Of a stretch of DNA of 48,691 bases, positions 43,087 to 48,480 are shown piece by piece (positions within the stretch are counted from its first letter, which is position 1; each line of letters starts with the position of its first letter). Source of the stretch: Microcystis aeruginosa NIES-4325 (GTDB lineage: Bacteria; Cyanobacteriota; Cyanobacteriia; Cyanobacteriales; Microcystaceae); contig NZ_BJKP01000028.1 of the NCBI RefSeq assembly GCF_008974145.1, positions 1 through 48,691 on the forward strand, given 5' to 3'. The notes under the pieces are model-generated. The model was not told the origin of the DNA and did not search any database. It saw nothing but the letters and a program-made list of their open reading frames with translations. The position numbers and the translations under genes are program-made.

Positions 43087-43383
43087 GAGAAGGGAAATGG
43101 GAGCGGGAATAAGAAAGAAATAGATTATTTTCTTCAGGTATAAAAGCGATTTTTCCAGAAAAATCGTTAAATTAAGGACTTTAAGAGCGATTTCGCCCTT
43201 AGGCTCTGACTTTTGCAGGAGATAAGCTAAGACGCATTTTAACCACCTATCCTTTTATTGTTACCCCTTGCCCCTTGCCTCATCAAGCAATTTAAGTGCG
43301 CGGGCAGCTTTCCTTGAGTTTTCCAAAGATGGGCTTACTATGAGAGTAGGGGAAAAAAAGATAATTTTAGCGATCGATTAACA
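43087..43383. other. Spacer between phoX and the KaiA3-like gene
   Basis: 297 bp without a gene. CGATTTTT-CCAG-AAAAATCG (43147-43166) and an imperfect TAAGaGCGatttCGCcCTTA palindrome (43182-43202) may end phoX transcripts. A promoter for the next pair is expected near 43340-43380. Confidence 0.45.
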
Positions 43384-44250
43384 ATGACCAGGGATCTCTG
43401 TAGAATTTTATTGATAGAGGATGAGCCGACGACTGTTAAATTAATCCAGAGATTGCTGTTAAAGGCCCCCCAATGTTCCCTGGCTGGGGGGTTGACTTTT
43501 ACCCTCACCCAAGCTCAGGATCTACAGGAAACTGCTGAAAAACTGGCAGGGGAGAAATTCGATCTCATCCTCTTAAGCTTGGAAATCTCTGTCCCCCCCG
43601 GTTTAAATATCCTAGTCAAAACCAGAGAATTAGCCTCTACTATACCGATAGTGGTTCAAACTACTAGCAATGATGAGAAATTAGTCGTTAAAGCCTTTCA
43701 ACTGGGTGCTGACGGTTATATTCAGTTAAATAATATCGATAGTAGTCTTTTAGTCTATCAAATTCGTGTGGCGATCGAGCGTCAGCAATATATTCTCAAT
43801 CTTAAACATCAACAACAGGAAGAGGAATTTCGCGAACTGGAACAGTTAATCAAGGGAGGACAAACTAGCATCACGGCGAAAATGTTCGGTTCTGAGGCAA
43901 TAAGGCAGAGTATTCCCGATATTTTTCAAGAATTAGTCCAAAATTACGGAGATTTATTAGATTTAGCTTTAGAAGAACAAGTATACAAAGTGGAACATAA
44001 TCTATCGGAACGACTGCGAAGCTTGGCCGATAAGTTAGGATTCTTAAAAGCTAGTCCTCGCGATGTGGTGGACATTCATACTACCACCCTACGCCAAAAA
44101 AATCAGGATGTCACCCTGGCCAAAGCGCAGGCCTACGTTAGCGAAGGTCGTCTCATGGTTTTGGAATTGATGGGTTATCTCGTCTCTTTCTATCGTAAAT
44201 ACTATATCGGTCTCAGCAACATTAAACTGTTCAATAACACGCAATCATGA
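43384..44250 (+). CDS. kaiA3: KaiA3-like chimera: degenerate receiver domain plus KaiA-type C-terminal domain
   Basis: 288 aa. Residues 5 to about 130 are a response-regulator receiver (RILLIEDEPTTVKLIQRLL at the start, GADGYIQL near 108). Residues about 165-276 are all-helical and resemble the KaiC-activating domain of KaiA: VVDIH at 228-232 matches KaiA's VVEIH, and EGRLMVLELMGYLVSFYRKYY (254-274) matches the LIDVIAHLCEMYRR helix. A receiver-KaiA chimera next to kaiB3 is the layout of Synechocystis sll0485-sll0486, recently named KaiA3-KaiB3 and shown to work with KaiC3. Odd point: the phospho-acceptor Asp is Ser65 (LILLSLEIS) and the conserved Lys is Gln114, so it should not take phosphate. 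The stop overlaps the kaiB start (ATGA). Confidence 0.8.
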   Translation: MTRDLCRILLIEDEPTTVKLIQRLLLKAPQCSLAGGLTFTLTQAQDLQETAEKLAGEKFDLILLSLEISVPPGLNILVKTRELASTIPIVVQTTSNDEKLVVKAFQLGADGYIQLNNIDSSLLVYQIRVAIERQQYILNLKHQQQEEEFRELEQLIKGGQTSITAKMFGSEAIRQSIPDIFQELVQNYGDLLDLALEEQVYKVEHNLSERLRSLADKLGFLKASPRDVVDIHTTTLRQKNQDVTLAKAQAYVSEGRLMVLELMGYLVSFYRKYYIGLSNIKLFNNTQS

Positions 44251-44537
44251 GTCAATATCTTCTCAAACTCTACATTATGGGTGATTCCAGTAAATCCCAG
44301 AGGGCGATCGCCAATATTTTTCGTATCTGTCGCGAGGAGTTGTCGGATCTTTATACGGTAGAAATAATTGATGTTCTCGAACAGCCCCAATTAGCGGAAC
44401 AGGATAAAATTCTCGTAACTCCTACTTTAGTCAAACAACTTCCCCCACCCCTACAAAGAATTATCGGCGATATGTCCAATACTCAAAAGGTTCTCCTCGG
44501 TTTGGATGTTATTCCCAAAGACTCCCATCTCAATTAG
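44247..44537 (+). CDS. kaiB3: Circadian clock protein KaiB paralogue (KaiB3-like)
   Basis: 96 aa thioredoxin-like KaiB fold. Strong marks: LLKLYIMGDSSKSQRAI (the first strand-helix), VEIIDVLEQPQLAEQDKILVTPTLVKQLPPPLQRIIGDMS, the most conserved KaiB stretch, and VLLGLDVIP at the end. KaiB binds KaiC and sequesters KaiA to close the feedback loop. Its ATG shares four bases with the stop of the KaiA3-like gene, so the two are translationally coupled. It is shorter than KaiB1 (about 102 aa) and lies away from any kaiC. The assignment to the B3 type rests on the neighbour and on memory; whether it also fits KaiB2 needs a tree. Confidence 0.87.
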   Translation: MSQYLLKLYIMGDSSKSQRAIANIFRICREELSDLYTVEIIDVLEQPQLAEQDKILVTPTLVKQLPPPLQRIIGDMSNTQKVLLGLDVIPKDSHLN

Positions 44538-46386: not shown

Positions 46387-47466
46387 CTAGTCGTCCATTT
46401 GCCAGGGTTCGGTGATGTTTTTTTCATCAAGGATATTTTTGGCTCTTAAAATCAAGATCAATTCACCTAGTATGGTGACATCGGGGGAACTATCAAACCA
46501 TTGTAAAAAGACAGAATTATCTCTCTCCACTAGATAATAATTGTTCACATCCCATTCGGCAAAAACTCGATCGATCACTAATAACACTTCCTCGGATCTG
46601 GTGGCAATCGATCGAGGTAATTGATCACTAGGCCATAAAATAGCTACAGGATCGATCGCCTTGAGAATTGCTTGCCAACCGGGGAGAGGCACAATCGTTT
46701 GTTTATCCCCCACCGTTACCAATCTAAAAGGTTCCTCGACGCTCAAACTTTCTGTGCATTTTATATCAGTTACCGTCACCGGAAATCTTCCTACTAAAGG
46801 AATAATTCTGGCTAATTCGTCCTCATCCTGTAAACGATGGACGGGCAGCAACGGTGCGCTACGGGTGGGAGTAACGGTAAAATCTTGTAGTAAAGACTCG
46901 ATCGCCTGTCTGGCCGAGTCAGAATGGGCAAATCTCAAACCTTTAGCGATTAATTTCGCTCTTTCGGCTAAATCTCGCTTTTGTTTGCCCCGTTTCCAAC
47001 ATTGGTAAGCGATCGCATCTCCAGGATGACGGGTAAATTCACTGGGAATCTGGGATAAACGGGAAAAATCTTGGATAGCTTTGGCGATATCGTGTGCTTC
47101 AGCCACCTCAATCCTTTTTTCTGCCGCTAATTTCGCTGCTCCCAGTCTTTGTTCTTGGTTGAGAATCCGTAATTCGTATAGCACATCACTGCGCGGCCCG
47201 ATGTAGTAACTTAATAAATCTTCATCTGCCCCCGCTTTGATTAAACTCTCAAAAACTTGGGCAGCGACAATAATTAAATTTTGTTGGGCATTTTGAAACC
47301 CGGTTTGTTCAAAAATTAACTGGGAATCGTAGCCAGCTTTTTGCAGTTTTTGACATTTTTGCCCCCAATTCACCCAATTTCCTTCCTTATGAAGCAGCGA
47401 TCGCATTAATTCGGTCGCTTCCGTTTCGCTGATTCGATCATCTGTACTGCGAGGCTGTTCTGTCAT
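46387..47466 (-). CDS. raf1: Rubisco accumulation factor 1
   Basis: Assembly chaperone that clasps the antiparallel Rubisco large-subunit dimer after GroEL and hands it on to RbcX or RbcS. 359 aa from the ATG at 47466; an in-frame TTG lies 15 bases upstream. The N-terminal helical domain (LMRSLLHKEGNWVNWGQKCQKLQKAGY, then PRSDVLYELRIL) and the C-terminal beta-domain (about 195-350, with IIPLVGRFPVTV) agree with the family. Between them is a flexible linker near residue 200. It is divergent from ccmO, so Rubisco assembly and carboxysome shell genes share one 147-bp promoter region. Confidence 0.9.
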   Translation of the reverse strand: MTEQPRSTDDRISETEATELMRSLLHKEGNWVNWGQKCQKLQKAGYDSQLIFEQTGFQNAQQNLIIVAAQVFESLIKAGADEDLLSYYIGPRSDVLYELRILNQEQRLGAAKLAAEKRIEVAEAHDIAKAIQDFSRLSQIPSEFTRHPGDAIAYQCWKRGKQKRDLAERAKLIAKGLRFAHSDSARQAIESLLQDFTVTPTRSAPLLPVHRLQDEDELARIIPLVGRFPVTVTDIKCTESLSVEEPFRLVTVGDKQTIVPLPGWQAILKAIDPVAILWPSDQLPRSIATRSEEVLLVIDRVFAEWDVNNYYLVERDNSVFLQWFDSSPDVTILGELILILRAKNILDEKNITEPWQMDD

Positions 47467-47613
47467 AGACAACTTGGTCAAGCTACAATAACTAAAATTT
47501 ATCTAATCCCTCAAAAATCTTCAATAGCAATTAAGGTTAACAGGATAGACTAGATAGTAACAGGATAGCTGACAATCACCCCCTTCGTACCTGTTAGGGC
47601 AAGTTTATCTTCA

Positions 47614-48480
47614 ATGTCTAGATTAAGAGTTAATGGAAGCATTCCCCCCTCGTCCACAACTAACCCCAGTCAAAGGACGATGAAAACCAAGCGTCACCCC
47701 AAAGATAGCGCCTTGGGTTTAGTCTCTACCCTCAGCTTTCCAGCGATCGTCGGGACGGCGGATATGATGCTAAAATCCGCAGAAGTTACCCTCGTGGGTT
47801 ACGAAAAAATTGGCGGTGGTCACTGTACGGCGATCGTGCGTGGTAATATTGCCGATGTGCGTTTAGCAGTGGAAGAAGGGGCAAAAACCGCCGCACAGTT
47901 CGGACAATTGGTATCTAAATCGGTTATTCCCCGACCGATGCCCAATTTAGAGGTAATTTTCCCAATTGGTAGCCGTTTAGCCGAAATTGCCCAAAGTCAA
48001 CGGGGTTTCAGCAAACTGAGCAATATGTCGATCGGTCTCTTGGAAACCAGGGGTTTTCCTGCTATGGTAGGGGCTGCCGATGCTATGTTAAAATCGGCCG
48101 ATGTGCAGTTAGCTTCCTACGAAACAATTGGGGATGGTTTGTGTACGGCCATTATCCGGGGTTCCGTCGCTAATGTGGCCGTGGCAATTGATGCAGGAAT
48201 GCGGGAAGCAGAGAAAATCGGTGAACTGCACGCGGTGATGATTATTCCCCGTTTATTGGAAGATTTAGAACATACCCTACCGGTGGCCAGCTACTGGTTA
48301 GAAACTCCCGAACCTTTACCGATGTTGTTACCCAATACTGTCCGGGAAAAACAACGGGAATTAGTCGCTTTACCAGAATTGGAAAAAACTAAAATACCAA
48401 TTCGTCGCCAAGAAATGCAGGAAAAAGTGTTAGAAGAAGTGATTCCCGTGGAAGTTATCATCGATGAGGACAGTTATTAA
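47614..48480 (+). CDS. ccmO: Carboxysome shell protein CcmO (tandem BMC domains)
   Basis: 288 aa with two bacterial-microcompartment domains, about 33-117 (ALGLVSTLSFPAIVGTADMMLKSAEV) and 137-224 (SIGLLETRGFPAMVGAADAMLKSADV), joined by a short linker. It forms trimers that fill hexamer places in the beta-carboxysome shell. The C-terminal ~60 residues are charged and Glu/Pro-rich, a known feature of CcmO. The ~30-residue N-terminal extension (SRLRVNGSIPPSSTTNPSQ) is also typical. It stands apart from any ccmKLMN cluster, as happens in several cyanobacteria. Divergent from raf1. Confidence 0.95.
   Translation: MSRLRVNGSIPPSSTTNPSQRTMKTKRHPKDSALGLVSTLSFPAIVGTADMMLKSAEVTLVGYEKIGGGHCTAIVRGNIADVRLAVEEGAKTAAQFGQLVSKSVIPRPMPNLEVIFPIGSRLAEIAQSQRGFSKLSNMSIGLLETRGFPAMVGAADAMLKSADVQLASYETIGDGLCTAIIRGSVANVAVAIDAGMREAEKIGELHAVMIIPRLLEDLEHTLPVASYWLETPEPLPMLLPNTVREKQRELVALPELEKTKIPIRRQEMQEKVLEEVIPVEVIIDEDSY

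Follow-up and report, generated by a model that had tools for sequence, protein, structure and literature searches.

The kaiA3-kaiB3 Clock Operon of Microcystis aeruginosa NIES-4325 and the Probable Stepwise Loss of Its Receiver Active Site

KaiA3 of Synechocystis stimulates autophosphorylation of KaiC3 and supports oscillation in vitro, and its receiver aspartate, D65, is described as conserved "except Pleurocapsa and Microcystis" (Koebler et al., 2024; PMC11372060). On the grounds of D65, the Synechocystis oscillator has been suggested to be driven by a histidine kinase (PMC11372060; PMC13421787), and a 2026 review calls the receiver genuine (PMC13421787). An identified receiver that is missing at least one of five residues is termed a pseudo-receiver, and aspartate-less receivers (ALRs) are a subset of these (Bourret et al., 2025; PMC12632262). 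In Microcystis, purified KaiC3 incorporated phosphate and was not affected by Synechococcus KaiA (PMC5520375), and one kaiB paralog of M. aeruginosa PCC 7806, not identified as kaiB3, cycles inversely to kaiBC (PMC3023806). Here we describe kaiA3 and kaiB3 in M. aeruginosa NIES-4325 (contig NZ_BJKP01000028.1; hereafter the window, meaning the whole stretch of 48,691 nucleotides that was analyzed). We consider it probable that they serve, as an operon, a second oscillator of the KaiA3B3C3 type, and that KaiA3 carries an aspartate-less pseudo-receiver which arose by stepwise loss and works independently of phosphate.

The receiver and operon of Microcystis KaiA3

Alignment with NarL places Ser65 in the column of the acceptor Asp and Leu115, which is flanked by Gln114 and Asn116, in the column of the NarL Lys. 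The acidic pair (Glu12, Asp13) and Thr93 are retained. Of the features of a functional receiver, the window KaiA3 therefore has the acidic pair and the Ser/Thr and lacks the acceptor Asp and the Lys, which satisfies the definition of an aspartate-less pseudo-receiver (Bourret et al., 2025). Because Ser65 and Leu115 replace the acceptor Asp and the switch Lys, the domain would not be switched by a histidine kinase in the usual way, even with its receiver fold, acidic pair, and Thr93 kept. The original prediction had proposed a pseudo-receiver with Ser65 for Asp and Gln114 for Lys. The pseudo-receiver and Ser65 are borne out, and Ser65 is found in all 11 full-length Microcystis copies; the second substitution is one residue off, as the NarL alignment, the family column, and the model all exclude 114 as the Lys position. 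Apart from this coordinate slip the observation was correct, and its interpretation for Microcystis is sound and already published.

The loss of Asp in Microcystis KaiA3 is contained in one clause of the 2024 paper, and the core finding is thus already known, because that paper names Microcystis as a D65 exception (PMC11372060). Its main text does not contain 'lysine', 'Lys', 'K115', or 'K116'. A literature search, which did not cover supplements or most subscription journals, returned no paper on the KaiA3 Lys or on the M. wesenbergii loss described below, and a 2025 study of rhythms in Synechocystis names KaiA3 without using the word 'receiver' (PMC12053491). What the present comparison adds is the order of events: it points to an earlier weakening of the switch, in a common ancestor of Microcystis and Synechocystis. 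The features of the locus are as follows.

43384..44250, plus strand: kaiA3, 288 aa, pseudo-receiver and KaiA-like C-terminal bundle
43384..43788, plus strand: receiver domain, residues 1-135
43417..43422, plus strand: Glu12-Asp13 codons, acidic pair kept (from the alignment)
43576..43578, plus strand: Ser65 (codon AGC), position of the phospho-acceptor Asp
43660..43662, plus strand: Thr93 codon, active-site Ser/Thr kept
43726..43728, plus strand: Leu115 (codon TTA), position of the conserved Lys
43741..43854, plus strand: linker, long helix 120-157 (from the model, with confidence declining from residue 140)
43861..44217, plus strand: KaiA-like C-terminal helical domain, residues 160-278
44247..44537, plus strand: kaiB3, 96 aa, start overlapping the kaiA3 stop (ATGA)

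The source genome is 3.88 Mb (completeness 99.85%), and the window is its contig C28. The 288-residue frame matches PF00072 over residues 8-114 (E 3.2e-12) and is 98-99% identical to KaiA3 of six other Microcystis genomes (L014-L019). The 96-residue frame directly downstream matches PF07689 (E 7.5e-29). The N-terminal domain is receiver-like. All 50 fold matches of the whole KaiA3 model rely on the receiver, in some cases together with the adjoining helix, and three of them, all to one dual sensor kinase, extend to residue 276 at rmsd 6.7-7.8. These matches say nothing about the C-terminal part, which was therefore modeled separately; alone, it has the KaiA fold. An hhalign comparison of whole KaiA3 with KaiA gave a probability of 3.7%, global alignment of the C-terminal domain to KaiA was unsuccessful, and PF07688 and PF21714, which both match KaiA1 of the source genome, were not listed for the window KaiA3 at E up to 1 (a range in which the HMMER filters discard most matches above 0.1). 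The window KaiB scores under both KaiB equivalog cut-offs and lies among KaiB3 in a 70-row tree that sets three KaiB1 rows apart by a branch of length 1.68; the protein is short, with few columns, and many forks are unresolved. Cut-offs and tree together rule out a KaiB1 identity. With its domains, ATGA overlap, and KaiB placement, the locus agrees with the KaiA3-KaiB3-type operon first proposed for it, and neither of two findings that would have spoken against that proposal, a C-terminal domain without the KaiA fold or a KaiB firmly grouped with KaiB1, was made.

Probable loss of Lys115 and Asp65 across the family

We compared 73 KaiA3 rows, 35 from the family of the window and 38 others (37 genomes, as L028 and L201 come from one piece of DNA). 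The KaiA3-bearing genomes (67 and three more) come from two even draws of 388 genomes each and represent these draws, not the whole order or class. L164 and L115 are identical proteins from two genomes, and G039 and G040 (remnants) and G204 were left uncounted. A 67-row tree omits L171, a cut frame of 123 aa in G204, and also L190 and L191, which are second copies of L055 and L047. A tree of the C-terminal domain (68 rows) omits L190, L191, L171, L201, L115, L031, L030, and L177.

Within the family, the acidic pair is kept in 34 rows, Asp65 in 18, Ser/Thr93 in 25, and both Lys115 and the complete quintet in none. Among the other 38 rows the corresponding counts are 28, 31, 32, 35 (Lys115, kept in 34 of the 37 genomes), and 23 (complete quintet), and five non-cyanobacterial rows all have Asp and Lys. 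An Oscillatoriaceae metagenome-assembled genome (L024) is among those with the full quintet. A branch supported at 100/98 separates the family from the other rows in a tree built with the trait columns removed; with the C-terminal domain alone the support is 97/89. Lys115 requires a minimum of three changes, or two on the C-terminal tree, and Asp65 eight on both trees, five or six of them inside the family; such counts do not distinguish loss from gain. Read most simply, the pattern seems to reflect a single loss of Lys in the family ancestor and later, repeated losses of Asp, at least five of them within the family. Because Lys was lost essentially once, the data have no power on whether Asp losses follow Lys loss in excess of chance. 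The original prediction took the change to be particular to one lineage. This does not hold, as Lys is absent from 35/35 family rows, Synechocystis included, and D65 was repeatedly lost elsewhere.

Asp65 is replaced by Ser in Microcystis and, independently, in Roseofilum, by Asn in g9, two of three g10 rows, and g13, by Gly in g5, and by Glu in L159 and L177. L136, with Gly65 (codon GGT), joins Microcystis at 99/80 on the full tree and not on the C-terminal tree; an AU test on this placement, which would give an Asp-Gly-Ser path, returned p 0.21. Roseofilum and its kin (f5; L163, L183, L198, L201) have Ser at the Asp position, have lost the acidic pair, and keep Lys; judged by these residues, this is an independent erosion of the active site in a different order from that in the family of the window. 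Two KaiA3-like proteins whose receivers hold all five residues come from metagenome-assembled genomes (MAGs), one labeled Planctomycetota (L030:6467-7614, kaiB adjoining) and one labeled Nitrospirae (L031:477-1283, no kaiB found alongside). Both extend the non-cyanobacterial genera listed in PMC11372060.

Recurrent loss of Asp suggests an input that does without phosphate. One such input, a special case of the explanation we prefer, is sensing of a quinone or other redox ligand, convergent with canonical KaiA, which is a quinone-binding pseudo-receiver (PMC11372060; PMC12632262). We hold this more specific role to be doubtful, as the genome already has a canonical KaiA1 (PF07688, PF21714) and D65 is retained in 18/35 family rows.

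Genome G046 (genus g12) encodes a KaiB1 identical across 105 residues to PDB 1wwj, which we take to be Synechocystis KaiB. At 299 residues, its KaiA3 matches the length that PMC11372060 implies for Sll0485, and all five g12 KaiA3 rows combine Asp65 with Leu115. By the rule of Bourret et al. (2025; PMC12632262) the Synechocystis domain, as read from its sequence, is also a pseudo-receiver, because Lys115 is missing. We lean slightly toward the view that one ancestral loss of Lys, followed by at least five losses of Asp, made KaiA3 a pseudo-receiver throughout the family, also in Synechocystis PCC 6803. The chief caveat is a one-residue shift of the Lys to 116. Two points weigh on the side of such a shift: phmmer aligns Lys116 of G046 to the NarL Lys by way of a one-residue gap, and Lys116 is commoner within the family (16/35) than outside it (6/38). 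On the other side, KaiA3 rows of the family and of the others are ungapped over columns 108-119, column 115 holds Lys in 35/38 rows outside the family, and the aromatic that receivers are described as having three residues before the Lys (Bourret et al., 2025; PMC12632262) is Tyr112, which fits a Lys at 115 and not at 116.

The same residues bear on whether regulation by phosphate persists, through another Ser/Thr or, in relatives with D65, through the shifted Lys116, so that Microcystis would be missing only the canonical acceptor. The retained acidic pair and Thr93, the 16 Lys116 rows, the gapped phmmer alignment, and the atypical regulator GlnR, which is phosphorylated on Ser/Thr (PMC12632262), are compatible with this. 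We judge it unlikely, given that Microcystis has none of Asp65, Lys115, and Lys116 (Asn116), that Tyr112 points to 115, and that columns 108 to 119 are ungapped.

Selection, a likely gene loss, and the KaiC3 partner

The Microcystis KaiA3 receiver evolves faster than the C-terminal domain yet is constrained. Across 11 Microcystis, dN/dS (Nei-Gojobori) falls from 0.130 in the receiver through 0.102 in residues 136-165 to 0.052 in the C-terminal domain, and kaiB3 stands at 0.031. Identity of the window protein to 24 other family rows was 35-54% in the receiver and 55-80% in the C-terminal domain. Such constraint is not expected of a domain without a role, and from this purifying selection it follows that the receiver is probably retained for a phosphate-independent role.

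The original prediction called for a search for kaiC3 in the same genome, and the gene is present and intact on contig C9 (G000:C9:33419-34936), which rules out its absence. It encodes a two-domain KaiC (506 residues), the second in the genome besides that of kaiA1B1C1 on contig C4; contig C54 carries a single-domain PF06745 match. KaiC3 is 99-100% identical across 12/12 Microcystis, 87-91% identical to 24 other family KaiC3, and 50-55% identical to KaiC1-type matches. KaiC3 occurs in 36/50 family genomes, 35 of which have a full-length KaiA3 and one a fragment. None of the 14 family genomes without KaiC3 has an intact KaiA3, and two keep remnants with several stops (G039:C1:2281860-2282318, L185; G040:C1:2367111-2367545, L184; genomes of 3.0-3.1 Mb). 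The smaller genomes G013, G014, G036, and G041 have neither kaiA3 nor kaiC3. A stop reported within kaiC3 of G048 ('1 TAA') was rejected, since it lies outside the frame of ~505 codons, which is open. kaiC3 lies within ~2 kb of kaiA3 in 18/24 non-Microcystis family genomes; the other six, five of g12 plus G049, have the two genes unlinked, as do the 11 Microcystis whose kaiA3 is full. In G001, G002, G009, and G011 the two genes share a contig and are >370 kb apart; in the remaining Microcystis with full kaiA3 they are on different contigs.

The twelfth Microcystis genome, G010, shares a stretch of 6000 identical bases with M. wesenbergii FACHB-1317 contig NZ_JACJQV010000205.1. Its kaiA3 (L186, G010:C119:1-6000) ends after 20 codons and is followed by other sequence to the contig end; a 37-residue frame at the break matches nothing in Pfam. 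The flank downstream lies on another contig (L208, G010:C136:5000-7401), where a transposase fragment (PF14706, E 8.9e-19) precedes it. A DNA search of the assembly, a draft of ~250 contigs, did not find kaiA3 codons 21-288 or kaiB3, and KaiB-domain matches number four in G010 and five in each of the 11 others. A natural deletion of kaiB3 and of the greater part of kaiA3 is likely, though the assembly is a draft. Its kaiC3 is open and differs from that of the source genome at 1/506 residues, and the strain is perhaps a natural case of KaiC3 without KaiA3 and KaiB3. The sequence GACTTTTGCAGGAG, located 5' of kaiA3 in the window (43208-43221), recurs at the G010 break point and is a possible mobile-element remnant.

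That the receiver is drifting because the second oscillator (KaiA3 or all of KaiA3B3C3) is no longer needed could account for the M. wesenbergii loss, the unlinked kaiA3B3 and kaiC3 in 11 Microcystis genomes, a receiver dN/dS 2.5 times that of the C-terminal domain, and absence of the system from several reduced family genomes, but such decay is improbable with dN/dS of 0.130, 0.052, and 0.031 all far below 1, KaiC3 conserved at 99-100% over 12 genomes, and kaiA3B3 intact in 11/12 Microcystis.

Elsewhere in the window (46387-48480), a gene for Raf1 (Rubisco accumulation factor; minus strand, apparent TTG start) adjoins one for a 288-aa double-BMC shell protein.

Comparison with known clock and receiver systems

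By analogy with published Synechocystis work, the C-terminal domain of Microcystis KaiA3 would stimulate KaiC3 autophosphorylation and KaiB3 would counteract this stimulation. The phosphate-independent pseudo-receiver that we favor would stand at the end of a stepwise loss, of Lys once in the family ancestor and of Asp later in several lineages. Candidates for its remaining work are dimer geometry, allostery on the C-terminal domain, and ligand binding.

If the family-wide reading is true, the Synechocystis second oscillator receives its input without a phosphorelay, and the hunt for a cognate histidine kinase is misdirected; if the receiver cannot switch without the Lys, that input is something else. 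Pseudo-receivers would also have arisen twice as the input domain of the clock, once in KaiA and once in KaiA3. The order of loss, Lys and then Asp, would extend to Synechocystis, the laboratory strain whose second oscillator has been reconstituted and where input can be tested.

KaiA3 (Sll0485) of Synechocystis sp. PCC 6803 has a receiver and a KaiA-like C-terminal domain, as in Microcystis. In both, kaiA3 is upstream of kaiB3, kaiC3 is unlinked, and Leu115 is present (G046 for Synechocystis), whereas G046 has D65, Lys116, and Ser93 and Microcystis has Ser65, Asn116, and Thr93. Canonical KaiA of Synechococcus elongatus likewise joins a pseudo-receiver to the same kind of C-terminal fold. Its pseudo-receiver is without alpha-4 (PMC11372060), whereas KaiA3 retains recognizable PF00072 sequence and alpha-4 (model residues 98-106); KaiA1 of the source genome carries PF21714 in place of PF00072. 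Like the window KaiA3, ALRs have the receiver fold minus the acceptor Asp. Unlike ALRs generally, the window KaiA3 has a KaiA-like clock domain as its output, and the order of its losses, Lys before Asp, can be inferred.
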